Shown here piece after piece: positions 14,627-43,165 of a stretch of 64,000 bases of DNA. The translations under genes were made by a program, and so were the position numbers. Origin of the DNA: Ailanthus altissimus (taxonomy: Eukaryota > Streptophyta > Magnoliopsida > Sapindales > Simaroubaceae); assembly GCA_946807835.1 (NCBI GenBank), contig OX327711.1:16527501-16591500 (forward strand), written 5' to 3'. The notes below the pieces were generated by a model. The model searched no databases. It was not told the DNA's origin and worked only from the letters and a program-made list of their open reading frames with translations. The stretch's first letter is position 1; every line of letters begins with the position of its first letter.

Positions 14627-15480
14627 ATGGTACTACAAAGGCATGAAATATAGAAATTTACAAGGCAAAATGATTTCAATTTATGGAAACTTAAGATGTT
14701 GGCTTTATTAAAGAGTCAAAGACTAAAATCAACTTTTGAAGAACCCTTAAGTACTAATGATAAGCTTATAACATCTAAATCCGAAATAGATTCTGAAACC
14801 ATTAATAGAAAGGTCGAGGGTGAAATTATTTTGAGTTTGGGTGATGAAGTTTTGAAAGAAATGGGTAAAGAAAAATCTACACTATGTTTGTGGAAAAGAC
14901 TTGATGAGTTGAACATAACTAAGTCTTTTGCAAGCCGATTGTATCTCAAGAAAAATTTATTTCAGTTGTCTTTGGTTGAAGGTGGTTCACTCAATTAACA
15001 CATTGATTCCTTCAACAAGGTTGTCATTAATTTGGAGATAGTTGATGTTAAAATCAGTGACGAAGACAATGCAATTTTGCTACTGAGTTCATTTCTTAAA
15101 AGTTATAAATATTTTGTTGATAATCTCTTATATGAAAGGAAGTCATTGACAATGAAGGATGTTAGAATAGCTCTAAACTTAAAAGAGTTGGTCAAGAAGT
15201 TAGAATAACAACAACAAAATTCTATAGTTGTACTTGTTATGAAGGAGAGAGCTGAGAGTCAAAAAATTAAAGCGAAAAATTCATCAAGATCAAAATTGAG
15301 GGGCAAATACAAGAAGTGATACTTTTATAAGAAAGAATTTCATTTTAGGAGGGATTGTCTATAAAGGAAAGCCAAATATCAAAGGAAGAGACCTGAAGTA
15401 AATGCAGCTATAGTCTATAAAGAAAACCATGAAATTGTAGAAATATTAGTTGCTTCGAATGGGCAGAACACTGGTTAGTG
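14627..15480 (+). pseudogene. Copia B gag remnant
   Basis: Starts with ATG at 14627 and encodes a copia gag: QNDFNLWKLKMLALL, then WKRLDELNITKSFASRLYLK, then LLLSSFLKSYKYFVDNL. There is a stop at codon 9 and another near 14998. The zinc knuckle near 15330 is degraded. The longest open stretch, 14696-14998, is only an internal piece of this gag. Confidence 0.75.
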
Positions 15481-15508
15481 GATTCTAGACTTTAGATGCA
15501 CTTTTCAT

Positions 15509-15997
15509 ATGTGTTCTAATAAAGCCTTGTTCACTAGCTATCAGTCTATTAACTGTTGTAAAGTATTAATGGGCAATAATATGACTTATCAAGTTATTGG
15601 GATGGGTAGTATTAGATTAAAACTACATGATAGAAGTGTGAGAGAGTTGTTAGATATGAGAAATGTTCTTGAACTTCAAAGAAATTTAATTTCTTTAAGC
15701 TTGCTTGATCAATTCGGTTGCAAATTTAAAGGTGAGAATGGTACATTGAAACTACATGATAGAAGTGTAAGGGAGTTGTTAGATATGAGAAATGTTCTTG
15801 AACTTAAAAGAAATTTAATTTCTTTAAGCTTACTTGATCAATTCGATTGTAAATTTAAAGGTGAGAATGGTACATTGAAAGTAATTAAGGGTTCAATGGT
15901 TGTAATGAAAGGTGAGCGTAAACACGGGGTATATGTGTTAAGTGAAAAGACTGTCATTGACTCTACATCTTTCTCTGTTGATAATGAGAATATGTAG
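15509..15997 (+). pseudogene. Copia B protease / pre-integrase segment with internal duplication
   Basis: This open stretch of 162 codons encodes the end of the protease region and the approach to the GAG-pre-integrase domain (LKVIKGSMVVMKGERKHGVY is typical). A 43-residue block beginning KLHDRSVRELLDMRNVLEL occurs twice in tandem. Intact relatives have this block once. The pre-integrase LRLRHLGERGQKEL follows after a stop at 15997. Confidence 0.75.
15622..15879 (+). repeat. In-frame tandem duplication, two units of 129 bp
   Basis: AACTACATGATAGAAGTGT begins at 15621 and again 129 bp later. The units differ at only a handful of positions (for example LQRN/LKRN and FGCK/FDCK at protein level), and 129 bp is 43 codons, so the frame is kept. 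Confidence 0.9.
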
Positions 15998-16009
15998 ACT
16001 AAGTTATGG

Positions 16010-16580
16010 CATTTAAGGTTAAGGCACTTAGGTGAGAGAGGTCAAAAGGAGCTGATGAACAGGGTGTATTTAGCAAGGATGAGATCTAGCTAATGGGATT
16101 TTGTGAATATTGTGTACGTGGTAAAGCTCATAGAGTTAAGTTCAACACGGGTGAACACAACACCAAGAGCATTCTGGATTACATACATTTTAACTTTTAG
16201 GGACTTGCACAAATTATCACTCATGGTGATGCACGGTATTTTCTATCATTCATTGATGATTATTCAAAGAAGTTATGGGTTTATGTGTTGAAGAGCAAAG
16301 AGTAGGTGTTTAAAACATTCTAGCAATGGAAAGCACTTGTAGAGAATCAAATGGGTAAAAAAATCAAAAGCCTTAAGATGGCTAATGGTCTTGAGTTTTG
16401 CAATACTGAGTTTGATAAGTTTTGTGCAAAGTATGAGATTACAAGGCATAAAATGGTACGGTATATACCACAACAGAATGGACTTGTAGAAAAGATAAAC
16501 CGAACCTTACTTGAAAGAGTAAGGTGCATGCTAACTAATGCCGGATTGTCTAAGGCATTTTGGGGAAGGTTGTAGTAAAA
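16010..16580 (+). pseudogene. Copia B integrase remnant
   Basis: Encodes HLGERGQKEL, then the core segment 16351-16575 with ANGLEFCNTEFDKFC, VRYIPQQNGLVEKINRTLLE and AGLSKAFWG. The second catalytic Asp of the TDNG motif is replaced (MANG), while the Glu in NGLVEK is kept. With the stops this shows a non-functional integrase. Confidence 0.75.
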
Positions 16581-17289
16581 CGAGTTACTTGATAAACGAA
16601 GTTCTTCCTCAATTATTAGCTTTATGACATTAGAACAGAAATGGTTTAGAAGCACTTCAAAATATGATCACCTGAGAGTATTTGGATGTCCTGCATTTAT
16701 ACATATCAAGCAAGGCAAACAAGAACCAAGAGTCTTGAAATGAATATTCATTGGATATTTAGAATATGTTATAGGATATAAGATATGGTGTACTGATCTT
16801 AAGCAACACAAGAGTATTATTAGTAGAGATATGACATTCAATGAATCTAAATTATTGGAAATCAATGCAAATTAAGTTTTGAGGAAGCCAGAAGATGTGC
16901 CAAGTTCAGTTTCTGAATCTGAAACTAAGTATTATGAAGTGGTACATGATTTGAGACCCGACTCTCATATAGGTTAGCACTTCAATGATGAAGCACATAA
17001 AGAATAAGAACCTAAAAGTTCTTCCCAAACAACACCACTACAGTCTAGCACTTATGAAGCTGAACTTGAAGAGTACTAGTTGGCTAGAGATCATCAATTG
17101 AGAGTGACCATTGAACAGGTATGCATATGCAAATTTGATAGCTTATGTGTTTAACATTGCTTATACTGTTGAATGTGATGAACCAAGATCATATGATGAA
17201 GCTATAAAGGATGTAAACTGTGTTAAATAGCAATAAGCTATAGAACAAAAGTTCAATTCTCATAAAAAAATCAGAGCTTGAGAAACAAG

Positions 17290-17700
17290 AGGCTAGTTGG
17301 ATGCAAATGAGTTTACAAGATTAAGAATGGGGTTTCGAGTGTTGAGCCTACAAAGTTCAAGGTCAAGCTTGTTGCACAGGGCTTCATAAAGAAAGAAAGG
17401 GTTAATTTTTATGAAATCTTTTCTCCTGTTGTAAAACGCTCATCCATTCGTATTTTATTATCCACGTGTATGAATCTAAATTTACATTTTGAACAAATGG
17501 ATGTAAAAACAGCATTTCTTTCTGGTGAGCTTGAAGAAGAAATATACATGGCACAACTAAAAGGTTTTGAAGAACTGGATAAAAAAGATCATGTTTGTTT
17601 GTTAAAGAAGTCTTTATATGGGCTAAAGCAATCTCTAAGATAATGATATAAAAGATTTGATGATTTTATACTGCATTGTGGCTTCACAATGTGCAAATAT
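17290..17700 (+). pseudogene. Copia B reverse transcriptase, N-terminal part
   Basis: Encodes KLVAQGFIKKERVNFYEIFS, PVVKRSSIRILLS, HFEQMDVKTAFLSGELEEEI, then KKSLYGLKQSLR followed by two stops: the fingers and palm of a copia RT up to just before the YVDD box, where the foreign sequence enters. Confidence 0.78.
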
Positions 17701-30137: not shown

Positions 30138-30949
30138 TGAGTTTTATGCTTATGGCCACAAGACTTCTTAAAATATAAACTCGGAGCATCAAGATATATA
30201 ACTTACTCATACGAGCTGATGGATCCCATATCTACACACATCAGACTCTATAAGCATCAGACCATACCCAGCGACACTCAACGGTCAAACCATGAAAGGT
30301 TTCTGACATGTGTAGAACCAAAACATAGTGGATCATTCACAAGCCCATCGTGGCACTCAGGTCAAAGGACCACAAATACTAATTAACTTAGAAGACCTTC
30401 CATTGACAGATTTATGAGATGTCTATTGGAGTTTCTCGTGAGTCTGTTTAGTACCCAGTCCTTACTGAATACATGTATCTCTATACGAGCTTCCACTAAA
30501 CTTATAGTTTGTTAATACTAGCCATCTGGACTATCTAAATATAGATATACACTAATCTATATTAATAGATTTTATTGATAGACCTGCATCGATAAAATTA
30601 GATTAGAAATATAATGTTTGAGAACATACTTGCATAATGACATTTTCTAGCACCATCTGCAACTCTTTGTAACTATGTCATTATTAATATATTCTCAGGT
30701 CTTTGTCCAATTTAAGATAAGTCTCTAATTCCTTAGATTTCACTAACTCTTTTAACCTACTAACTCTTAGCATAACCGTCTAACTCTTAATACTTATAAC
30801 TTTTATCGTTGCTAACTCTTAGCACTGATCTAAACTCTTTTAGACCATATCTAAACTTTTTCAAATCATACAATATCTGAAACGTAACAAGCATCTTACC
30901 ATTTAATAATTAATAATATTAACGATTTAATTAGAAATAATAATTACAT

Positions 30950-33802
30950 TGTAGTAACCAGTATCCATAACCGGTAAGAATATGTATATTTATATATATA
31001 AATATACGTATTTTATTTGTATGTTGGTGATACTTGAATTATATATTGTTATTAGTAATATTTTTATAGGTTAAGGATATACGATTAGTATTGGGTTTAT
31101 TTGTATGACTTTAGATTTATTTTAGGGACCAAATTGTTATACTTTGAAAGTTTTGGGGGCAAATTTGTAAATATCAAAAATTAGCCTCTTAGTATAAAAA
31201 TACACTTTTAAACCCTAATTTACCATTTTTAGGTCGAGCTACCAATTTTAAGAGAGAGAAGAGAGAAATAGAGGAGAGAGAAAGAGGAGAAGAAGAAGAA
31301 AAAGAAGAAGAAATTAGAAATTTGAATTTCAAGAGGTATATCATACGTATTTCTCAATTTATTGGTATTAATTAAGTTAATTCCTTTAAGTTTTGATTTC
31401 TGAAAATATGTATAATTGAGGATTTGTTGTGTATTTCGTAAGATCATATGAGAATTGATGATGATCTATAAGATAGTTTGATAAATCATGATGAATTATG
31501 GAATTTCTGCTGGATAACCTCTTGATCTAGGAATTTTATAAATTGTTGTGATTCGATTCTGGTTTTGAATTTTGAGTATATGAAATTAGACATGTTTAGG
31601 ATCATCTGAGACTTTGAATCGACTGAAAATCTCGGAAATTGAATTTGTAGTGAATTTACCAAAATGACCCTGGAATTCTGGAAATTTCCTGTGTAAACAG
31701 TATGATACAGTGGAAAATAATTTTTGACCTGCTGAATGATCTTTAAAAATTACGAATTTGTGGAATATGATAATTTTATATGTCTAATATGATATACTCG
31801 GAATTGAGAATTTGGATCAATGTGGTTGAAGTGTTATGAATTTCTAAAGTGTATCAGCTCATTGTAGTATTTGATTAACAGATTTTTAAAGTTATGAAAT
31901 AAAATAGTTTTAAAATACTTTTGGCAGTTATTTGGAAGCCAAATATTTATCATGGACTGAGATATGTGTCAAGAGTAATTATGTGGTAGTTTTATAATTT
32001 TTGAGTTAGTATATGATTTTATAAAATTGGGAGATTGAATACTGTTCAGTAAGTATCTTGATCCTGTCAGGTTTGTAGTTTGGATTCGATGGTGTGTATG
32101 GAATGGATTGTGTAGGAATTTTGATATAATATTCATATATAAGAAGTATATATGAGTCAAGAATGATATATTCTGATTTCGGAGTAATTGGACATCATTT
32201 GATGTATTAGAAATTTTTGTTAAGTGTAAGTGGTCAGAATGACAGGTTTTGAGAAACCAAATATTTAGACCAATTTAATGTGATAAATGCATTGTGTATA
32301 ATTTTGTAAGCTATTTAAAGTATTTTGTGTGAATTGTGAGGCTTATGAAAGGATTAATCTCCATTGATAGGTTAAGGAGATTTAAGCCTTGTAGCTGAAA
32401 GTGTTAAGAGGTAAGTATACTAGACTTACTACTGGAATCACAATAAACATAATAATTGTTTTGTATGATTTTGTAAATGGGGTTAAGAATATGTTTATGA
32501 TATGTCAAAGTATATTTTGATATGAAATGTGAATATATGTTTATGAATGTGAGCATTGACATTGAGCATGGACATACATGTGTTTTTTGAAAGTGAGCTT
32601 TTCAAAATAAGATGCGTTTAACAAAGAAAGCTTTTGAAGTGTAATATGTCCATGAGAAATATTTTGTGATTTGAGGGTACTTGAACTCACTGTTAACTTA
32701 GTAGGCATTTTATGTGATTTGTGGAGCCTTTATGTGTGGCCTTTCCTTCGGGATTGGTATATGTTATGTGTTTCGTATGTAGGGAGGATCCTATTGGTAC
32801 CTAAAGGAAGTGTGAGTCATCACATTCGTGTGGTGGCGTATAGGTACATGTGAGAGGACTCACCGATGATCAGGGTGAGGGTTTGGCTTTTACCTTCGGG
32901 CATAAGCGTTATATATGTGTGATTTAAAGACCTCACTTGTACTATTCCTCTCATACGGTATGTCACCTACGAGTGACATTTGGCTCATTATGTGATATGT
33001 GATATGTAAGTCCTACTAAGTAGTAGTTGAGTAATGGTATTCTTATTATGTGTTTTGAAAGAATGTGTAAGCGCTTACATGATATGTGATTTGATAAGAT
33101 TATGATTTTGATTGATCACAGCATATCATACATATGCATTGTGTACATATATGTATTTGTATTTGATATATGAAAAATTAGTATGCTTACTGAGTTTTAT
33201 ACTCATTATAGTTTATGGTGATTTCAGGTAAATAAGGTACATGTGTGCTTAGCGGATTTGGCAAGGCTTCTGCTGTTCCTTGGGTTCCCTAAGTTGCTAG
33301 GTTGTTGTGTGTTTCATTTGGGGACACGTGTGATAGGATATTTGGTTTGTCCCTATTGAATAAATACTTATGTATTATTTCATTGTGTGTGGATTGGATT
33401 TGGTTTAAGTTTTATAAAGTGTGGTTATTGGATGATTTTAAGTAAGAATTTGCAATGGATATATTCTGGGCTCCCGGTAACAAAGTTGCTACTGGTGACG
33501 TAGTAGAGTGTTAATCTCTGAGAAAACTCTGCGTATCTCCGGTTTAATAATTGTCCCAGTCATAATTCAATTGCTATAATTCTGAAAGAAATTGAAATGA
33601 ATGTTTAAATATTGTCAAGAGAAGTTTATATTTATATGTTAGGTTATGGTTGATTTTAGTGTTGAACTTACTAGCAACTTGCTAAGGATTTCTGTGTTGA
33701 ATGAAAGTTGAGTATTTTGTGTAATATTATTTATGAGTGCACGTGCAGTGAATGAATGTAAGTGATGTCGTGTGTCGGATCTTTTGGGTCTGGGGCGTGA
33801 CA
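30950..33802 (+). repeat. 5' LTR of the young element
   Basis: 2853 bp, TGTAGTAACCAGTATCC to GGGGCGTGACA. Compared by eye, it is collinear with 37618-40470 at a constant offset of 6668 bp with no indel, and I found no substitution in the stretches checked. A TATA-like TATAAAAATA lies at 31193-31202, followed by a GA-rich tract (31247-31315). Short open frames inside it occur identically in the other LTR and are not genes. Confidence 0.92.
31193..31202 (+). promoter_or_regulatory. Probable LTR TATA box
   Basis: TATAAAAATA within the 5' LTR, on the strand expected for genomic RNA synthesis; the same sequence is in the 3' LTR at 37861-37870. Position about 245 bp into the LTR. Inference from motif only. 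Confidence 0.45.
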
Positions 33803-33810
33803 GCTTTTAT

Positions 33811-33822
33811 TGGTATCAGAGC
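33811..33822 (+). other. Primer-binding site (tRNA-iMet)
   Basis: TGGTATCAGAGC is the perfect 12-base complement of the plant initiator tRNA-Met 3' end, 8 bases after the 5' LTR. It fixes the element's transcription direction as plus. Confidence 0.92.
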
Positions 33823-34249
33823 TAAGATATGATTCTGTAGACTTTTAAGTGTCGAGTCAAGGGAACCGAGCAGATGCCAAATCCTTAGGATTGTATTTGT
33901 AGCTTTGTTGTGTAAAAGTTTGACATATTCCTTAAATTTTTTTATGATTTTGTGAAGATGACACAGTATCCAAGAGCTGCTAAGATTGTTGTTGTTGTGG
34001 ATAATGGTACCTTGTGGATCTTAATGTTACCATTTAGATTTTCTTTTAAGTTATGACTAATATGCTTAGTAAGAGTGATGTTGAATATCTTATAATGATA
34101 ATTTGCATGTGATAGAGCAAATTGAGATAATTTTCTCAATGACAAAATATAGAGAAGTAGAGTATTGAAGACATCAATTGAAACAACTTTTATTGAAAAG
34201 GAAAACAACAACACAACAACAATAGCAGCAACAAAAAATACAGTAGATG

Positions 34250-34915
34250 CTACGGAGTGAGATTTAAGTCTATTTTGCGCTTCTTCTGACTGTCATGAGT
34301 AGACCAATCTAACTGATGCAATGTTGGATTAGACAGAGGAATAAAAAACTGCAATTGATCAATCAGTTGATCAATAGTTGGAGCTGAAATAAGAATCCGT
34401 CGTGCTAGAAGTGGGATGAATTGTGTTCCCGCTGCATAGTCAAGAAAAGATATCAACCCATCGTAAAAACCATTAATATTTAACAAACCAATGGGTTTTT
34501 GGTGGATTTGTAATTGTGCCCATGAGACAATTTGAAAAATTTCCTCCAAGGTCCCGAAACCTCCTGGTAGAGCTATGAAAGCATCCGCATGCCTAAGCAT
34601 TTGAGCCATTCGCTCGTGCATAGATGAGACTTGTAACTCATCCCCAATTGTTTTTCCTACAACATTTTCAATAGCTAGAGGTTTTGGAATGATACCCAAA
34701 ACTCGACTACCTTTATTGTGTGCAGCTTTTGCCACAGACCCCATTAACCCTCGGTTACCTCCTCCATATACTAAATGTATATTTCGCTCAGCTAATACCT
34801 TACCAAGATTTTCTGCAACTTTTGTAAACTCTTCAGTATTCCCAGGGTTGGATCCACAAAAGACACAAATTTTTGTGAATCGACGAGCTGAGGTTTCCTC
34901 CATTGTTATGCTCAC
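34250..34915 (-). CDS. LOG: LOG-type cytokinin riboside 5'-monophosphate phosphoribohydrolase, intronless, inside the LTR element
   Basis: LOG enzymes release active cytokinin bases from their riboside monophosphates in one step, in cytosol and nucleus. The 221-residue frame is uninterrupted and of full family length. Seen: the nucleotide-fold start ICVFCGSNPG (16-25), GGGNRGLMG (51-59), MHER (99-102) with the conserved Arg, and the signature PGGFGTLEE (117-125); SAPTIDQLIDQL near the C-terminal end is also family-typical. The Lys usual after MHxR is Met here. Most plant LOG genes have several introns; this has none, pointing to an RNA-derived or otherwise captured copy. It runs opposite to the LTR element. 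A TATA box lies about 50 bp before the ATG at 34915-34913. Whether it is expressed or active cannot be told from sequence. Confidence 0.93.
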   Translation of the reverse strand: MSITMEETSARRFTKICVFCGSNPGNTEEFTKVAENLGKVLAERNIHLVYGGGNRGLMGSVAKAAHNKGSRVLGIIPKPLAIENVVGKTIGDELQVSSMHERMAQMLRHADAFIALPGGFGTLEEIFQIVSWAQLQIHQKPIGLLNINGFYDGLISFLDYAAGTQFIPLLARRILISAPTIDQLIDQLQFFIPLSNPTLHQLDWSTHDSQKKRKIDLNLTP

Positions 34916-34963
34916 CCTAATCTTTGAATATTTTTGAGTTTGTATAAGGATGCAATAATAATG

Positions 34964-34971
34964 TATTTATA
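34964..34971 (-). promoter_or_regulatory. TATA box of the LOG cargo gene
   Basis: On the minus strand CTCTATAAATACAT, about 50 bp upstream of the LOG ATG. The same CTCTATAAATA core stands before the neighbouring cargo gene. This suggests each has its own promoter, not LTR-driven expression. Confidence 0.6.
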
Positions 34972-34991
34972 GAGAAACAAATTGATAATAG

Positions 34992-35500
34992 CTGTGGAGC
35001 ATATGTGTAAGTATGTTCAAGTATATATTTTTCTCGATTCTTGTGAGGTAAAACAAAAAAAAAAAAGAATGAGTTTTACTTTATCATTTTATAAGGGACA
35101 ATAGGTCGCAAAATCTTGAATAAATATATGTTGATATGTAAGTGTGATAAAAATTGTGTCGGAAGTGTGATAAGTTAGGTAAGATAATTAAGAAAAGTCA
35201 ATAAAGGCCTATTTTATGGATTTAGGGACTTAGCCATTTTGGCACTAATGGTCGACAATACATCAATGACTTGAAGACTTTTTGAGCTAACAATTGGACT
35301 TTGGACATGAGGCCAAATTAACTTTATTAATTACAAAGATTTTGTGGTCTTAACATTAATTTTTGGCCGATAGATTAAAAGCAGATATGAAGAAAGATAA
35401 AGCACACTTGACATAAAGATAAAGCAGTAATCAGTCTCTCTTTGATGTGATAGAGCAACACGGATCTAGTTTCTGTGAAAAACAGAAACAGCAATGTAGG
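34992..35500. other. Spacer between the two cargo genes
   Basis: Non-coding: the upstream region of LOG and the 3' flank of the 386-residue gene. AT-rich; no RT or integrase remnant was seen. Confidence 0.5.
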
Positions 35501-36661
35501 TTAAAATGAGTCTCCCTGATCGCTTTCATCTGTGTCGTATCCGTGAGAGAGAAACTTATGGAGTTGTTGTTCCCATACATTGAATGAGGGCTCTGGCTGA
35601 GTGGAAGGTGGGTCTACCATATCTTGATCTTCTGCAGGTGAGCTGGTCTGGATGAGGGATGTGCTGGCTTCCTCTTGGATTTGGGTGTCGGTTAGATAAT
35701 GTTGTGAGTCTTGAAAGAGGGATAAGTCAAGATTGGGTTGGCGTTGGTCAGGTTCTGTCGGGACAACTGGCTGAGATTGGGTAGGTTCTGTCAGGACAGC
35801 TAGCTGAGGCCATTGGTGAAGGTTATCCATTGCTTGTCTGTATCTGGCATAATAAGTCATGTTTGGGATATGGTGATGGTGGGTAGAGTAATTTGTATTT
35901 CTGAGATGTGAAAGATGATATTTTTGTCTTTGTTGGAATTTGAGTATATTGGCAAAATTCAGGTCTTCTGCAAAGTCAGCTTCAACCTGTTCCCAAGGCG
36001 CAGCATCTTCTGGGGAGATCCAAACAGACGGAGGAATTATTTGATTTTCCTGAGCAAGAATTCTTTCAAGTTCTCTCTTTTGTTGGATTACTTCTTCAGG
36101 CCAGAGCTTAATTGATCCCTTTAGTGAAAGGGTAAATGTGAAGTAATCCTTAACAGTGGGGTAATAATGAATCTCGTGATCTGAAATAATCATACCCTTC
36201 CGTTGGAGAAGTAAGACTGACCAAAGATGTTGTCTGGGGACTGCAGCATTTGTGTTGTTTGCAATCATGTATTGAAATTTAGTTATCCACCATGTCTTTG
36301 GGTAAAACCATTGGAGAAAAATCAGGGCTGGATGATCTTCATCACATTTTTTTAATTTTTGGAGGGTTATAAGTAATGGGAATTCCATGGCGATTGTATA
36401 CAGATCCAACAGGTACCATAACAAGTAAAGGACAGGTTTGGACCATTGGGAAAATGGGAAAAAAGAGTGCAGATGAAAGAAAGGGTATTCTAAGTTGAAC
36501 AAAGGGCCACCAAGAACTGTGAGGCCGTGTTCTTGGACTGCTAAGATGGCGTAGTGTCTGATGAATTCTTTGGCACGGGAATGGAGTGTTCTGGTTTTGA
36601 TTAGGTCTGGAAATTGTGGTGGAGAAAAAGGAACAGGAGGAGTTATGATAATGGGATTCAT
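35501..36661 (-). CDS. Uncharacterised 386-residue protein, antisense cargo of the LTR element
   Basis: I do not recognise the family. Uninterrupted from ATG at 36661 to TGA at 35501. Residues 1-20 are Pro-rich (ITPPVPFSPPQF). 45-130 are rich in aromatic residues (GGPLFNLEYPFFHLHSFFPF; FYPKTWWITKFQ) but are not clear membrane spans. 185-245 are charged and probably helical (WPEEVIQQKRELERILAQE; PWEQVEADFAEDL). A His/Tyr-rich stretch is at 248-275. The tail (286-386) is acidic, Pro/Gln/Ser-rich, with TEPTQSQPVVPTEPDQRQP near-repeats. No signal peptide, zinc knuckle, protease or polymerase motif is visible. The low-complexity tail suggests a structural or nucleic-acid-packaging type of protein, but that is a guess. 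It lies upstream of LOG on the same strand, 585 bp apart, with its own TATA box. Confidence 0.8.
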   Translation of the reverse strand: MNPIIITPPVPFSPPQFPDLIKTRTLHSRAKEFIRHYAILAVQEHGLTVLGGPLFNLEYPFFHLHSFFPFSQWSKPVLYLLWYLLDLYTIAMEFPLLITLQKLKKCDEDHPALIFLQWFYPKTWWITKFQYMIANNTNAAVPRQHLWSVLLLQRKGMIISDHEIHYYPTVKDYFTFTLSLKGSIKLWPEEVIQQKRELERILAQENQIIPPSVWISPEDAAPWEQVEADFAEDLNFANILKFQQRQKYHLSHLRNTNYSTHHHHIPNMTYYARYRQAMDNLHQWPQLAVLTEPTQSQPVVPTEPDQRQPNLDLSLFQDSQHYLTDTQIQEEASTSLIQTSSPAEDQDMVDPPSTQPEPSFNVWEQQLHKFLSHGYDTDESDQGDSF

Positions 36662-36723
36662 TATGAAGATGGTAAGAAGGTTGGTTTTATTTATTGCTAG
36701 AAAAGTGATTATGAGGTTTAGGC

Positions 36724-36731
36724 TATTTATA
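36724..36731 (-). promoter_or_regulatory. TATA box of the 386-residue cargo gene
   Basis: On the minus strand CTCTATAAATAG, about 63 bp upstream of the ATG at 36661. It shares its core with the LOG TATA box. Confidence 0.6.
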
Positions 36732-36739
36732 GAGTTTTA

Positions 36740-37600
36740 TGAAAGAAAATCAATAATCGTTTTGTCCTTTCCTTTTACGTGGATGACGTTAAAGGAATAG
36801 TTAAAAGAATCATATTTGCCATCGCAGTAATTGTGCTAGTAGAATCTTTTCTATTTGAAATCGAGCATATTAGAAAAAGCAGACATGTCAATCTCAATGA
36901 GAAAATGATGTCCAATAAGGTGGACTATTTTTTTTAAGAGTTAAAGTAAGAGATATAATGTTAAGATCTATAGTTTAAGAATCAGTTGAACTAAAGGTCT
37001 TTTTATTGAAGTTGATTTTTGATCGTTTAAGATAATGCTTTCAATATTCTGATTTGAATGACAACTTAGTTGCGTAGAAATACTACATTTTTTTTTTTGA
37101 ATGATATCAAGGTAGTGAATGATATTATGACGTATGAGTATATGTTGAAGGGATTAAAATTTTTAAAGGAGTTAAGAATTTTATGTAAGAGATTAGTATG
37201 GGTATTCTACATCTATGTTATTCTTTAATGAATGAAAGGTGAAGTGTATAGATACCCATTAAATATTGAACGAATGGGAAAAAAAAAAAGAATAAAAATA
37301 TGTGTGTATGATTTTATAAGTCCATAATGTGTGTCATATGTTTATTTTATGGATATATGTTTCGTACTCCTCTCGTATACTCAGCTATGAGCCAACTTAG
37401 AGATAATCTAACATATGAATGAGTATTTATTAGGATTTTGGACCACAATGAGCAAATCCTATATACAAGGAAGATTGCTTTGTAAATGTTTTATGAATAA
37501 ACTATACAGTTGAAAAGGAAAATTGAGAATGAGAAGAAGAAATGAGATCTAAGTATCCTCATCTATGTGCTTAAGTTATGAATTTCGAGGACGAAATTCT
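36740..37600. other. Interior of the LTR element without a gene
   Basis: AT-rich, no domain recognised. The end (37572-37605) carries TTCGAGGACGAAATTC followed by the polypurine tract, like the tail of gypsy pol genes, so a decayed polyprotein end may be present. Confidence 0.45.
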
Positions 37601-37603
37601 TAT

Positions 37604-37616
37604 AAGGAGGGGAGAA
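37604..37616 (+). other. Polypurine tract of the young element
   Basis: AAGGAGGGGAGAA ends one base before the 3' LTR start at 37618, the standard position for plus-strand DNA priming. Confidence 0.88.
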
Positions 37617-37617
37617 T

Positions 37618-40470
37618 TGTAGTAACCAGTATCCATAACCGGTAAGAATATGTATATTTATATATATAAATATACGTATTTTATTTGTATGTTGGTGATA
37701 CTTGAATTATATATTGTTATTAGTAATATTTTTATAGGTTAAGGATATACGATTAGTATTGGGTTTATTTGTATGACTTTAGATTTATTTTAGGGACCAA
37801 ATTGTTATACTTTGAAAGTTTTGGGGGCAAATTTGTAAATATCAAAAATTAGCCTCTTAGTATAAAAATACACTTTTAAACCCTAATTTACCATTTTTAG
37901 GTCGAGCTACCAATTTTAAGAGAGAGAAGAGAGAAATAGAGGAGAGAGAAAGAGGAGAAGAAGAAGAAAAAGAAGAAGAAATTAGAAATTTGAATTTCAA
38001 GAGGTATATCATACGTATTTCTCAATTTATTGGTATTAATTAAGTTAATTCCTTTAAGTTTTGATTTCTGAAAATATGTATAATTGAGGATTTGTTGTGT
38101 ATTTCGTAAGATCATATGAGAATTGATGATGATCTATAAGATAGTTTGATAAATCATGATGAATTATGGAATTTCTGCTGGATAACCTCTTGATCTAGGA
38201 ATTTTATAAATTGTTGTGATTCGATTCTGGTTTTGAATTTTGAGTATATGAAATTAGACATGTTTAGGATCATCTGAGACTTTGAATCGACTGAAAATCT
38301 CGGAAATTGAATTTGTAGTGAATTTACCAAAATGACCCTGGAATTCTGGAAATTTCCTGTGTAAACAGTATGATACAGTGGAAAATAATTTTTGACCTGC
38401 TGAATGATCTTTAAAAATTACGAATTTGTGGAATATGATAATTTTATATGTCTAATATGATATACTCGGAATTGAGAATTTGGATCAATGTGGTTGAAGT
38501 GTTATGAATTTCTAAAGTGTATCAGCTCATTGTAGTATTTGATTAACAGATTTTTAAAGTTATGAAATAAAATAGTTTTAAAATACTTTTGGCAGTTATT
38601 TGGAAGCCAAATATTTATCATGGACTGAGATATGTGTCAAGAGTAATTATGTGGTAGTTTTATAATTTTTGAGTTAGTATATGATTTTATAAAATTGGGA
38701 GATTGAATACTGTTCAGTAAGTATCTTGATCCTGTCAGGTTTGTAGTTTGGATTCGATGGTGTGTATGGAATGGATTGTGTAGGAATTTTGATATAATAT
38801 TCATATATAAGAAGTATATATGAGTCAAGAATGATATATTCTGATTTCGGAGTAATTGGACATCATTTGATGTATTAGAAATTTTTGTTAAGTGTAAGTG
38901 GTCAGAATGACAGGTTTTGAGAAACCAAATATTTAGACCAATTTAATGTGATAAATGCATTGTGTATAATTTTGTAAGCTATTTAAAGTATTTTGTGTGA
39001 ATTGTGAGGCTTATGAAAGGATTAATCTCCATTGATAGGTTAAGGAGATTTAAGCCTTGTAGCTGAAAGTGTTAAGAGGTAAGTATACTAGACTTACTAC
39101 TGGAATCACAATAAACATAATAATTGTTTTGTATGATTTTGTAAATGGGGTTAAGAATATGTTTATGATATGTCAAAGTATATTTTGATATGAAATGTGA
39201 ATATATGTTTATGAATGTGAGCATTGACATTGAGCATGGACATACATGTGTTTTTTGAAAGTGAGCTTTTCAAAATAAGATGCGTTTAACAAAGAAAGCT
39301 TTTGAAGTGTAATATGTCCATGAGAAATATTTTGTGATTTGAGGGTACTTGAACTCACTGTTAACTTAGTAGGCATTTTATGTGATTTGTGGAGCCTTTA
39401 TGTGTGGCCTTTCCTTCGGGATTGGTATATGTTATGTGTTTCGTATGTAGGGAGGATCCTATTGGTACCTAAAGGAAGTGTGAGTCATCACATTCGTGTG
39501 GTGGCGTATAGGTACATGTGAGAGGACTCACCGATGATCAGGGTGAGGGTTTGGCTTTTACCTTCGGGCATAAGCGTTATATATGTGTGATTTAAAGACC
39601 TCACTTGTACTATTCCTCTCATACGGTATGTCACCTACGAGTGACATTTGGCTCATTATGTGATATGTGATATGTAAGTCCTACTAAGTAGTAGTTGAGT
39701 AATGGTATTCTTATTATGTGTTTTGAAAGAATGTGTAAGCGCTTACATGATATGTGATTTGATAAGATTATGATTTTGATTGATCACAGCATATCATACA
39801 TATGCATTGTGTACATATATGTATTTGTATTTGATATATGAAAAATTAGTATGCTTACTGAGTTTTATACTCATTATAGTTTATGGTGATTTCAGGTAAA
39901 TAAGGTACATGTGTGCTTAGCGGATTTGGCAAGGCTTCTGCTGTTCCTTGGGTTCCCTAAGTTGCTAGGTTGTTGTGTGTTTCATTTGGGGACACGTGTG
40001 ATAGGATATTTGGTTTGTCCCTATTGAATAAATACTTATGTATTATTTCATTGTGTGTGGATTGGATTTGGTTTAAGTTTTATAAAGTGTGGTTATTGGA
40101 TGATTTTAAGTAAGAATTTGCAATGGATATATTCTGGGCTCCCGGTAACAAAGTTGCTACTGGTGACGTAGTAGAGTGTTAATCTCTGAGAAAACTCTGC
40201 GTATCTCCGGTTTAATAATTGTCCCAGTCATAATTCAATTGCTATAATTCTGAAAGAAATTGAAATGAATGTTTAAATATTGTCAAGAGAAGTTTATATT
40301 TATATGTTAGGTTATGGTTGATTTTAGTGTTGAACTTACTAGCAACTTGCTAAGGATTTCTGTGTTGAATGAAAGTTGAGTATTTTGTGTAATATTATTT
40401 ATGAGTGCACGTGCAGTGAATGAATGTAAGTGATGTCGTGTGTCGGATCTTTTGGGTCTGGGGCGTGACA
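37618..40470 (+). repeat. 3' LTR of the young element
   Basis: 2853 bp, same termini and length as the 5' LTR. It is followed by TACAT, the target duplication. The open frames at 37897, 38637 and 39339 repeat exactly those of the 5' LTR 6668 bp earlier. Confidence 0.92.
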
Positions 40471-40534
40471 TACATAAATACAATAATAAAATATTTATAC
40501 ATAATGGAATGGCACATAAGCACAAATCTCAACA

Positions 40535-40839
40535 TCTATATGGTGTTTTATCAGCATCCCTTCAAAAATAAATAGATGATAAAGTTTCTTTTTTATTTAC
40601 AAATGGTTGGCTAATGACTTTCTCATATAAATAGCATCCAACTTCTTCCATGGACCAATAATTGCCTTTTTACTTACAACTTCTTTCAAAACTTCATAGC
40701 TCAATAACAGAATAATTATACTATGAGTCATTTCTTGAATGTCTTTCTTCTCTACTTCAATTTTAGATGACTTTGGCATTTGTTTTTCTTTGCTAGACGG
40801 AGCTGCAGTCTCCTTTAGGGCTAAGCCTAACATTTAACT
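40535..40839 (-). pseudogene. Copia C gag, middle part
   Basis: Minus strand 40833-40597: MLGLALKETAAPSSKEKQ and VVSKKAIIGPWKKLDAIYM, a copia gag segment of the KKLEELYMxKSLxNxL type. It lies between two family L insertions. Joining it across them to 28449 and to 43166 restores gag order. Confidence 0.7.
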
Positions 40840-43165
40840 TATTGAGATTTGTGCTTACATGTCATCTTATTATGTATAAATATTTAATTATAATATTTAT
40901 ACAATTATCATTTCTAATAAAATTGTTAATATTATTAATTATTAAATGGTAAAAGATTTGTACCGTTTCAGACATTGTATGATTTGAATGAGTTCAGATT
41001 TGGTCTAAAAGAATTCAGATCAGTGCTAAAAGTTAGCACAATTAAAAGTTATAAGTGTTATGAGTTAGCAGTACTAAGAATTAGTAGGTTATAAGAGTTC
41101 GCAAAATCTAAGGAGTTAGAGCCTTGTCTGAAATGAGATAAAGACCTAAGAATAAATTAGTAATAACGTAGCTGTAAAGAGTTGCAGATAGTACTAGAAA
41201 ATATTATTATTCAAGTATGCTCTCAAATACTATGTTCTTAATCTAATTTTATCGATGTGGGTCTATCGGTGAAACCAAATAATACAGATTAATGTATATC
41301 TATATCTGTACAGTCTAAATAGTTAGTCTTAGCAAATTATGAGCTTAGCGGAAGCTCGTATAGAGATAAATGTATTCAGTGAGGAATGGGTACCGAACAG
41401 ACTCATAAAGACCTTCAATAGACATCTCATAAAGTTATCAATGGAAGGTCTTCCGAGTTGCATAGTATTCGTGGTCCTTTAACCTAAGCGTCATAGTGGG
41501 CTTATGAGTGATTCACCGTACTTTGGTTCCACACATGTTAGAAACCTTTTATGATCTGACCACTGGGTGTTACTAGTATGGTCCGATATTCATAGAGTCT
41601 GGTGTGTGTAGATATGAGATCCATCAACTCATATGAGTGATTTATATATCTCGATACTCCGAGATTGTATTTAAAAAATTCTTATGGCCACAAGTATAAA
41701 TCCTGAGAATAGTTTCAATAGGGCTAAACAATATCGCAAAAGTGTTTGTGGATATTGTTTATGTAAATACAAATCTGGAGATAAGTTCAAGGTTAAGAAA
41801 ATAGAGATTTGATGGTTATAATATATGTCTCTACTCTTTTAGGATATAAATGATGAAAAGATTATACGAATATGCTATAACCTCAACTTGTATAGTCTAA
41901 CGAGCTGCTTTGTAATATCCGTAACATGTGTGTAGGGCATCATTCACAGACGTATGAAGGAGTTCCGTATGACAAATTGGGCATAGACTTAAAGAGTCTC
42001 ACAATATGAAGTGTACTTGATTCAATAATTTGATCCAGAAAATTTCAGCAAACCGGATATTTGTTTAAAGATCCCTTAAGATGTGCATTTGTCAAGACTT
42101 AATTGTTAAGTACATCATATAGTTAGTTGACATAAGTTGTTAACTAATAGGATATTGACAAGTGGCATAATTTAGTCTATAAATTATTTTTACCTCAAAT
42201 TGACTCATTAACCTTACTAGTAAATATAAGTAAAGTAAAATAAAATAATTATTCAAAATTATTTTGAATAATTAATTAAATATTAGATATAATAATTGTT
42301 ATTATAAATGTCAATGGGGGTATAAACAATTATTACTATGACATATTAATAAAGACATGATATTATGAATGATGGAACACCATTAAAGTAAAGTTTACAA
42401 AACTTATAAAAAAATTAAAAATGTTTTAATTTTTATTAAGTGGATAATTAAATTACACTAGTAAAATAATAAAAAAAAAATAAAAATGTCATTTTTAATT
42501 TTATTTGTGTTAATTAATAGCTCTATAAATTTATTCAAAAGATATGCACTAATAAAAAGAAAAGCATTAGTGGCCAACAAAATTAATGAGTAGGCCATTT
42601 ATTATTTTTTGGTAGAGAAACAAAAAAAAAACAAGAAAAGTGTTTTAACTACTAAAGAAAGGAATTGATTTGATCAATTCTCTCAATTTCTATCATCGAT
42701 AGATACTCATCAAGTGATAAGAAAATAGAATAAATAGAGTGAGCAGTGTGTGCAATAGTTTAGCAAAAAGAAAAAAAAACTTTCTTTGAAAATTAGCTTC
42801 AAAAGGGATATGTAAGAGTTGCATAATCACTCAATTTTTTAAGAACAAATATTTGTGTTTAAAATATTGAACATATACTACTGAAAATTTGAATTAAAGC
42901 TACCATTTTAACTCTACAATCCTATCGGATTGTTTTGGACTAGAATTGTTCAAGAGTAGACTTTAAGGTGAGCTCCAAAATTTAAAATTTTCACCGAAGT
43001 TCATTAAAAGTATGTTTCTGCAATCTTGTCTTATTTATAATTCAGTTTACATGTGCACACGTTGATTATATATTTAATTCTACTATAAATCGTATATGTA
43101 AGACACATATTTAGTATTTTTAACGTGTACATAATTACATGCATACACTTAAAAACACGTTAACA
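40840..43165 (+). mobile_element. Solo LTR, family L, copy 4, in Copia C gag
   Basis: Starts TATTGAGATTTGTGCTTAC (the TG start mutated to TA) and ends CACGTTAACA. It is flanked by exact 5-bp repeats TAACT at 40835-40839 and 43166-43170. 2326 bp, non-coding, collinear by eye with copy 1 (for example GATGTGGGTCTATC, GCTCGTATAGAGAT, ATCAACTCATATGAGTG). It has no PBS or polypurine tract, so it is a solo LTR. Confidence 0.8.

Follow-up and report, generated by a model that had tools for sequence, protein, structure and literature searches.

An intact antisense LOG gene on a multiplied LTR retrotransposon of Ailanthus altissimus

Introduction

Steinbauerova et al. (2011) reportedly described two Athila-like elements with LOGL4-like frames. 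LOG/YgdH-domain genes within Ty3/gypsy elements are already in print for Citrus and Populus (PMC9289625), and the element studied here resembles these in carrying a LOG-domain extra gene inside a Ty3/gypsy-type element. Judged by the passages of that source that deal with LOG elements, it differs from them in having no gag-pol and an antisense LOG gene with its own TATA box that lies beside a second frame (ORF2), and its LTR-sharing partner belongs to a different lineage; the same passages mention neither a C-terminal tail nor selection. That 2022 survey, as its text describes it, started from the reverse transcriptase domain and was therefore blind to carriers without gag-pol. Our literature search found no antisense, gag-pol-less LOG carrier in print.

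Several other plant retroelements carry additional genes. The antisense frames named aORF-3R, which include maize Grande gene23 and the Retand TRP28 frames, are likewise antisense genes inside LTR elements (PMC7264820, PMC11963269), and gene23 is described as driven by a promoter of its own, with a product that is nuclear (PMC7264820). These frames lie between pol and the 3' LTR, whereas the element described here has an antisense gene but no pol was found in it, and the parts of PMC7264820 concerned name no clear similarity of aORF-3R to other proteins, whereas LOG is a recognisable enzyme. Ty3/gypsy elements of orchids that carry an AlkB m6A demethylase are a further case of a host-type enzyme gene fixed in an element lineage, but as presented in PMC9289625 they carry another enzyme, are large (25 kb), and were found by their reverse transcriptase. 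Gene-transducing elements of the maize Bs1 type also contain host-derived coding sequence; transduced sequences are, in the relevant part of PMC7264820, mostly sense-oriented and limited to one or a few copies, whereas the LOG gene reported here is antisense, present in many copies, and under selection.

Results

The window is a stretch of 64,000 nucleotides of the Ailanthus altissimus genome (contig OX327711.1). The segment at 30950-40470 is an LTR retrotransposon with a TACAT target-site duplication, two LTRs, a primer binding site, and a polypurine tract (Table 1), as a sequence-only reading had proposed together with an uninterrupted LOG frame inside it. The LTRs show no difference over 2,853 bp, and the element has recently moved. 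We take its primer binding site to be of the initiator-Met type. A Pfam scan of 10 of the 19 stop-free fragments of the internal region found no gag-pol domains. LOG and ORF2 are both antisense to the element, and their stop-free runs of 238 and 411 codons compare with a maximum of 160 when the bases of the internal region were shuffled 300 times. The sequence-only reading had passed over the absence of gag-pol, the antisense orientation of LOG, and the second antisense frame at 35501-36661.

Table 1. Coordinates of the element and its genes within the window
Feature	Position	Strand	Remark
Target-site duplication TACAT, left	30945..30949	.	
5' LTR, 2853 bp	30950..33802	+	identical to 3' LTR
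5' internal end	33803..33960	+	81% common with gag-pol elements
Primer binding site TGGTATCAGAGC	33811..33822	+	same site in gag-pol partners
LOG gene, 217 aa + stop	34250..34903	-	antisense to element
Tail KKRKIDLNLTP, basic cluster + DLNxxP (EAR-type)	34253..34285	-	LOG C-terminus
TATA-like box CTATAAATA	34964..34972	-	69 nt upstream of LOG ATG
ORF2, 386 aa	35501..36661	-	antisense; no known domain
TATA-like box CTATAAATA	36724..36732	-	71 nt upstream of ORF2 ATG
3' internal end	37319..37617	+	79-81% common with gag-pol elements
Polypurine tract	37606..37617	+	
3' LTR, 2853 bp	37618..40470	+	
Target-site duplication TACAT, right	40471..40475	.	

The LOG frame (34250-34915, minus strand) is intronless and stop-free, and contains GGGNRGLMG and PGGFGTLEE. 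Its start is likely the ATG at 34903, which gives 217 residues and matches the start of the relative P0001, rather than the GTG at 34915. The protein matches PF03641 (Lysine_decarbox; E 8.2e-39) and Arabidopsis At2g37210 (2a33; E 7.4e-63). The fold model (pLDDT 82.5) has 2a33 as its top structural match (E 1.4e-21), and the plant LOGs At2g37210 and At5g11950 (1ydh) have the same fold and PGGxGTxxE motif, with 48-50% identity in the structural match. Along with this motif the window LOG has R98 and E121, presumably the catalytic residues. The protein is predicted to be an active cytokinin-riboside-monophosphate phosphoribohydrolase. The TATA-like boxes of LOG and ORF2 are consensus matches; the one upstream of LOG is kept in 31 of 32 copies of the element family (family 1), and LOG is predicted to be transcribed antisense to the element from this promoter of its own.

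ORF2 has no Pfam match and only one relative in the database, and its fold model is useless (pLDDT 33). Its upstream box also occurs in copies L010 and L018. An LxLxL within ORF2 was rejected as a signal, being no better than chance (37% of shuffled sequences). Scans of viral contigs yielded no match to the LOG alignment, the ORF2 alignment, or the DNA pattern on the polypurine-tract side.

The host genome contains at least 150 LOG matches; all 150 that were listed span 216-217 of the 217 residues, and 148 of them are stop-free. In each of the 32 family-1 copies examined, LOG lies antisense to the same LTR end and primer-binding region, and ORF2 sequence adjoins LOG in 31. The element has multiplied LOG to well over a hundred copies, which bears out the earlier suggestion that the element could spread extra copies of the gene. 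Over 1,201 bp, the window LTR has copies at least 99% identical elsewhere in the genome.

All 32 LOG copies examined in family 1 lie beside this LTR. There are also sister elements whose LTRs are about 99% identical to it but which encode gag-pol in place of LOG. One of these, L016, encodes gag, protease, reverse transcriptase, RNase H, and integrase domains in a single frame of 1,509 aa and has the primer-binding context of the window element. Its LTRs are about 99% alike to those of the window element and its internal ends 79-81%; between the window element and the gag-pol elements, the internal region is alike at its ends only. The window element is therefore without a gag-pol of its own while a partner with the same LTRs encodes one. 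Presumably, this partner lineage is chromovirus-like. A tree of the LTRs mixes the two kinds of element, with weak support. Because the gag-pol sisters have these near-identical LTRs, the LOG element is probably moved by them in trans.

We found LOG in a second element family of the same genome (family 2), where it follows a different Ty3 polymerase in sense orientation and adjoins a plant-virus-type protein. Within the 3.6 kb compared, LOG and a short promoter are all that the two families have in common, and the LOG cassette is present in two Ty3 element lineages of the host. By its motifs, family 2 is presumably of the Athila type; with LOG in sense downstream of pol, it looks like the reported Athila-like LOG elements. 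In the tree, the element LOG clade is separate from the LOG1/3-like and LOG8-like sequences compared; a scan of genome contigs returned one bacterial LOG only, which served as the outgroup. The sequence-only reading had inferred that a mobile element captured a hormone gene of its host. Its intact LOG on a recently moved and multiplied LTR element stands; a fresh capture is not supported, because the LOG clade is separate, two Ty3 lineages have it, and Ty3/gypsy LOG genes had been reported (in passages of PMC9289625).

The comparison of codon changes between copies that had been proposed yields ratios of 0.22-0.36, which indicate purifying selection on both LOG and ORF2. Among seven family-1 copies (the window and six chosen by LTR or ORF2, not by LOG), LOG has 17 non-synonymous changes, two of them stops, against 23 synonymous ones (ratio 0.22, P 3e-6). 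Between families 1 and 2 the ratio is 0.36 (pN 0.146, pS 0.340, P 4e-7), and ORF2 has a pN/pS of 0.33 over 28 pairs. The 32 family-1 loci give lower LOG ratios of 0.06-0.15, but 30 of them were chosen by LOG score, which biases this set to conserved protein, and we therefore relied on the seven copies. Within family 2 the signal is weaker, with a ratio of 0.43 for changes seen once and of 0.90 for the few changes common to at least three copies (3 versus 1). Single LOG copies do decay: two of four copies chosen by ORF2 have a stop in LOG, in family 2, seven of 30 copies are no longer intact, and PGGxGTxxE is broken in 13 of 120 LOG-clade database hits versus 6 of 120 ordinary LOGs. ORF2 has stops in 28 of 107 scored copies. 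An initial view of ORF2 as unconstrained, based on 12 radical-looking differences to P0121, was overturned by codon counts over 28 copies.

EAR motifs are defined as LxLxL or DLNxxP in the relevant parts of PMC6283911 and PMC9956375. Such a motif is found in the last 25 residues of 97 of 120 LOG-clade hits versus none of 120 ordinary plant LOGs, and a basic cluster in the tail of 105 of 120 versus 1 of 120; the tail motif was defined after having been seen. DLNLTP is C-terminal in all 32 family-1 copies and in four of four further copies, and the leucine columns of the tail have 0.08-0.34 bits versus 1.3-1.6 at intervening residues. LxLxL is absent from two LOG subclades, one of which is Xanthoceras. 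These motifs suggest that the tail may act as a nuclear targeting signal for LOG and bring it into contact with TOPLESS-type corepressors. Our literature search found no EAR-like tail on LOG in retroelements in print.

Discussion

Our preferred explanation, which we consider fairly probable, is a non-autonomous Ty3/gypsy-type element in which two antisense accessory genes, LOG and ORF2, would have taken the place of gag-pol, both under core promoters of their own, and which would be copied by the proteins of sister elements with the same LTRs and primer binding site plus gag-pol. LOG, transcribed antisense from its TATA promoter, would release free cytokinin from riboside monophosphates, and its basic and EAR-type tail would target it to the nucleus, where TOPLESS-type corepressors would be its partners. 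The host cell state could thereby be altered, through local free cytokinin, the division or meristem state, or repression, and heritable new element copies would be favoured. A more far-reaching version, which we put forward only tentatively, is a two-part system: LTR-sharing elements would split the work, with gag-pol in one and two antisense helpers in the other. The helper LOG would act in the nucleus much as a pathogen effector does, its tail recruiting corepressors and its enzyme domain activating cytokinin, and the LOG cassette would move between retroelement lineages.

Four other readings bear on the same data. LOG and ORF2 might be passive cargo, host sequence caught by chance and useless to the element; transduced host genes are known in plant LTR elements (discussed in part of PMC7264820) and single copies do acquire stops, but LOG is under purifying selection both inside family 1 and across the two families, as is ORF2, the tail leucines are conserved, and the LOG cassette recurs with its promoter in a second element lineage, all of which makes this unlikely. 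We think it quite unlikely that the plant itself keeps the element-borne copies for useful cytokinin activation. The intact enzyme motif and fold and the many near-identical intact copies would fit such a benefit, yet the need for one enzyme leaves unexplained the 148 stop-free matches of the 150 listed, the linkage to the LTR (32/32) and to ORF2 (31/32), and a tail absent from 120 ordinary LOGs.

That the antisense units act as RNA, regulating the element through dsRNA or interference while their proteins matter little, has been discussed for antisense frames of plant LTR elements (in part of PMC7264820); we regard it as improbable here, given that the constraint falls on amino acids (ratios 0.22-0.36) and that LOG and pol have the same orientation in family 2. 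An ordinary host LOG gene between independent LTR insertions, which had been named as the case against the sequence-only reading, or an assembly artefact, is refuted by the single TACAT duplication outside two identical LTRs and by the same LTR-LOG arrangement at all 32 places examined across the genome.

If the preferred explanation of a helper-dependent element with two accessory genes is true, selfish elements keep and share a hormone-activating enzyme as a gene of their own, in more than 100 copies per genome, and the tail would suggest that they act on host transcription. The role of antisense accessory genes in plant retrotransposons becomes testable, as one of them has a known, assayable enzyme chemistry. 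Some plant genes listed as LOG may be element genes, which is a caution for annotation.

Two minor observations concern the antisense genes. A 14-nt repeat lies downstream of both LOG and ORF2, and there is an I/V excess relative to P0001, which was noticed post hoc.

Structure of the LTR element and its LOG gene

The sequence-only reading had described an LTR element with a 5-bp target duplication, a pair of 2853-bp LTRs, a primer binding site (PBS) and a purine tract, all of which were recovered at 30950-40470. Because the LTRs show no difference over 2853 sites, the insertion is probably young, less than roughly 40,000-210,000 years at usual plant substitution rates, an estimate that is invalid if the two LTRs were merged during assembly. 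Between the LTRs, 3815 bp of internal sequence contain two long frames, LOG and a neighbouring gene (ORF2), both antisense. The interior has 19 stop-free fragments of at least 45 aa; a Pfam scan of 10 of them, all but nine short ones, detected no gag-pol domain. The internal region has just two CTATAAATA boxes, one 69 nt upstream of the LOG ATG and the other 71 nt upstream of the ORF2 ATG, each on the minus strand (chance expectation 0.003 per 100 nt in a single-base model). A 14-nt word, ATGTGATAGAGCAA, occurs at 34107-34120 and again at 35445-35458, downstream of each antisense gene.

Features of the window element, its surroundings and the family-2 representative L063
Feature	Position	Strand	Details
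LTR element	30950-40470		two LTRs, 2853 bp each, 0 differences
Target duplication			TACAT, outer side of each LTR
Primer binding site	33811		TGGTATCAGAGC
Purine tract	from 37606
LOG	34250-34903	minus	217 aa from ATG
ORF2	35501-36661	minus	386 aa
Inverted-repeat arms	30673-30949 plus 40476-40532, and 40842-41171
PF05515-type frame	L063:2467-3024	minus	186 aa; between integrase and LOG; E 2e-7, 31.7 bits vs cut-off 23

The LOG frame proved as intact as first read: the 217-aa product matches PF03641 (E 8.2e-39) and Arabidopsis LOG structures (E 7.4e-63), and its model, built from 20 sequences (pLDDT 82.5), matches 2a33 (E 1.4e-21), with residues 201-217 disordered. It has R98, E121 and PGGFGTLEE, which we take to be catalytic.

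Copies of the element and a gag-pol partner

We searched the Ailanthus genome itself (939 Mb, 37 contigs). Among 6201 candidates for the window LOG protein, the best 150 were scored; all cover 216-217 residues at 97-100% identity and 148 are stop-free, a lower bound. Several of these 150 matches are paired, about 6.6 kb apart. The 32 copies of this family (family 1) that we compared, 30 chosen by LOG and two by LTR, are all alike in LTR end and PBS region and all carry an intact antisense LOG; the TATA box is kept at 69 nt in 31, and ORF2 sequence adjoins LOG in 31.

The earlier reading had asked whether every copy of the element carries LOG. Nine further LTR pairs were found among the 40 best LTR matches, of which L010 and L018 have LOG and ORF2 and seven have a different interior, matching that of the window element only at the first ~158 and last ~305 nt (79-81%). 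One of the seven, L016, has a 1509-aa frame with gag, protease, reverse transcriptase (RT), RNase H and integrase domains and is, by its RT motifs, presumably a Tekay/Del-type chromovirus; L011, L012, L014, L015 and L017 have its length and ends, and L013 is a shorter form with an internal deletion. The LTRs of the LOG and gag-pol kinds are about 99% alike and the PBS context of L016 is identical to that of the window element, while the adjoining internal ends differ; the simplest reading is co-packaging with LTR exchange, which would amount to mobilisation in trans. A tree of LTR slices nests four gag-pol LTRs among 36 LOG-element LTRs with weak support, its well-supported branches being compatible with a single split. 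At G000:C7:32719636-32735740 in this genome, three LTRs stand 7452 bp apart as tandem elements with a common LTR, and other places are similar.

A second LOG family

An Arabidopsis LOG3-type query yielded 5682 candidates in the same genome, of which the best 150 were scored. Each of these aligns in a single frame, from around residue 6-11 to residue 204-206, with 51-53% identity; a hand count gives 138 of the 150 as stop-free, again a lower bound, and their open frames are mostly 250 or 253 aa long. Compared by eye, these 150 and the best 150 of the 6201 window-LOG candidates have no place in common. In a sample of 30 of the 150 (L049-L078), the 29 other copies match the representative, L063, at 97-99%, 28 across the whole 3.6 kb and one across 2.4 kb; LOG is intact in 23 of the 30 and a TATA box lies at 73-74 nt in 28. 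The LOG of L063 is downstream of, and in the same sense as, a C-terminal frame that we take by motif to be integrase-like, for which Pfam gave no match. About 2.7 kb upstream of LOG on the same strand is an RT-RNase H frame (L079) that shares 41% identity with L016 across 369 residues and by its motifs presumably belongs to an Athila-like lineage. Two Athila-like elements with LOGL4 similarity were reportedly described by Steinbauerova et al. in 2011. This family also has a frame of the PF05515 type, a nucleic-acid-binding protein of plant RNA viruses; in 23 of the 30 copies (L063 included) the alignment starts at residue 1 or 2, runs the full length of the frame and meets no stop, and no similarity to ORF2 was found.

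The 3.6 kb of L063 has a single match to the window element, 903 columns at 77.5%, consisting of LOG and a short promoter with CTCTATAAATA. A LOG cassette is thus common to two Ty3 lineages, in opposite orientations, and may have been transferred either way.

Constraint on LOG and ORF2

LOG and ORF2 are under constraint. The changes among seven LOG copies (the window, two chosen by LTR and four by ORF2) comprise 15 missense and 2 stop against 23 synonymous ones, a ratio of 0.22 (P 3e-6, simple site model without mutation bias); two of the four ORF2-chosen copies have a LOG stop, which counts against selection. Between families, LOG has pN 0.146, pS 0.340 and dN/dS 0.36. Within family 2 the ratios rest on small counts and are weaker: 0.43 for singletons, 0.30 for changes seen twice and 0.90 for those in three or more copies. 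The pN/pS of ORF2 is 0.33 for the window against 28 LOG-chosen copies, mostly over residues 87-386, all pairs containing the window and thus being non-independent. By hand count, 28 of the 107 ORF2 copies that were scored contain stops, versus 2 of 150 for LOG, which is indicative only, each list being ranked by its own protein.

A conserved C-terminal tail

We compared the best 120 of 7958 protein matches to the window LOG with the best 120 of 7998 matches to two Arabidopsis LOGs, a control covering the LOG1/3 and LOG8 neighbourhoods, a part of plant LOGs. An exact LxLxL ending is present in 95 of the first 120. LxLxL or DLNxxP, two EAR motif classes as defined in PMC6283911 and PMC9956375, lies within the last 25 residues in 97 versus 0 of the ordinary LOGs, a motif picked after the tails had been inspected, and a basic cluster lies within the last 16 residues in 105 versus 1. 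Over 108 members of 205-222 aa from the first 120, values of 0.08-0.34 bits at the four leucine columns compare with 1.3-1.6 for the residues in between and 1.68 for the linker; of the 23 representatives at 80% identity, 20 have LxLxL at their end. In the window LOG the last residues are KKRKIDLNLTP, with DLNxxP where relatives have LxLxL, and either motif is terminal in 0.1% of shuffles of this protein. The strongest hint that the motif is used comes from this switch of EAR class within one lineage.

LOG trees were built from hand-picked rows with tails removed: tree 1 combines the window LOG with 43 rows from the first 120 and 35 from the ordinary 120, and tree 2 combines it with 34 and 21 rows from these and one bacterium. 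A single branch separates the window set from ordinary LOGs (SH-aLRT 100 in tree 1; 97/88 in tree 2). In rooted tree 2 the clade of the window LOG has 83/86 and tail presence takes two changes, the depth being unsure with a long outgroup branch. By hand count, 37 of the best 120 clusters (of 7958) are named Reevesia pubescens, with 168 member sequences and 15 different chromosome labels, and others are from Xanthoceras, Paulownia, Populus and Diplodiscus; this would fit multiplication of LOG by elements in several eudicot orders.

Relation to known elements and a possible role

According to PMC9289625, consensus LTR elements from Citrus sinensis, C. clementina and P. trichocarpa contain a YgdH/LOG domain, in agreement with Steinbauerova et al. 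2011; its marker is reverse transcriptase, so carriers lacking gag-pol would be beyond that survey. PMC7264820 reviews antisense accessory frames of unknown function, including gene23 of Grande, which has a promoter of its own and a nuclear product, and Retand is treated in PMC11963269. No tailed LOG, antisense LOG or gag-pol-less LOG carrier was found among the titles and abstract openings listed, most subscription journals being outside the search.

Going beyond what was observed, namely how the element is built, how many copies it has, the constraint on its genes and the conserved tail, we propose that LOG is an accessory gene of the element encoding a probably active enzyme. Its own antisense promoter would drive expression, the basic tail would bring the protein into the nucleus, and the EAR motif could recruit a repressor; gag-pol sister elements would move the LOG elements in trans, and the benefit from LOG would go to the element.

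Sequence around the insertion

An inverted-repeat element, its arms 82.6% alike over 334 columns, holds the LTR element within one of these arms. On the loop side, 40558-40770 (minus strand) resembles a copia gag at 14654-14995 (39%, E 3e-11). Broken Ty1/copia pieces extend over 14654-17640, with gag (marginally below cut-off), Pol_BBD and RVT_2 fragments.
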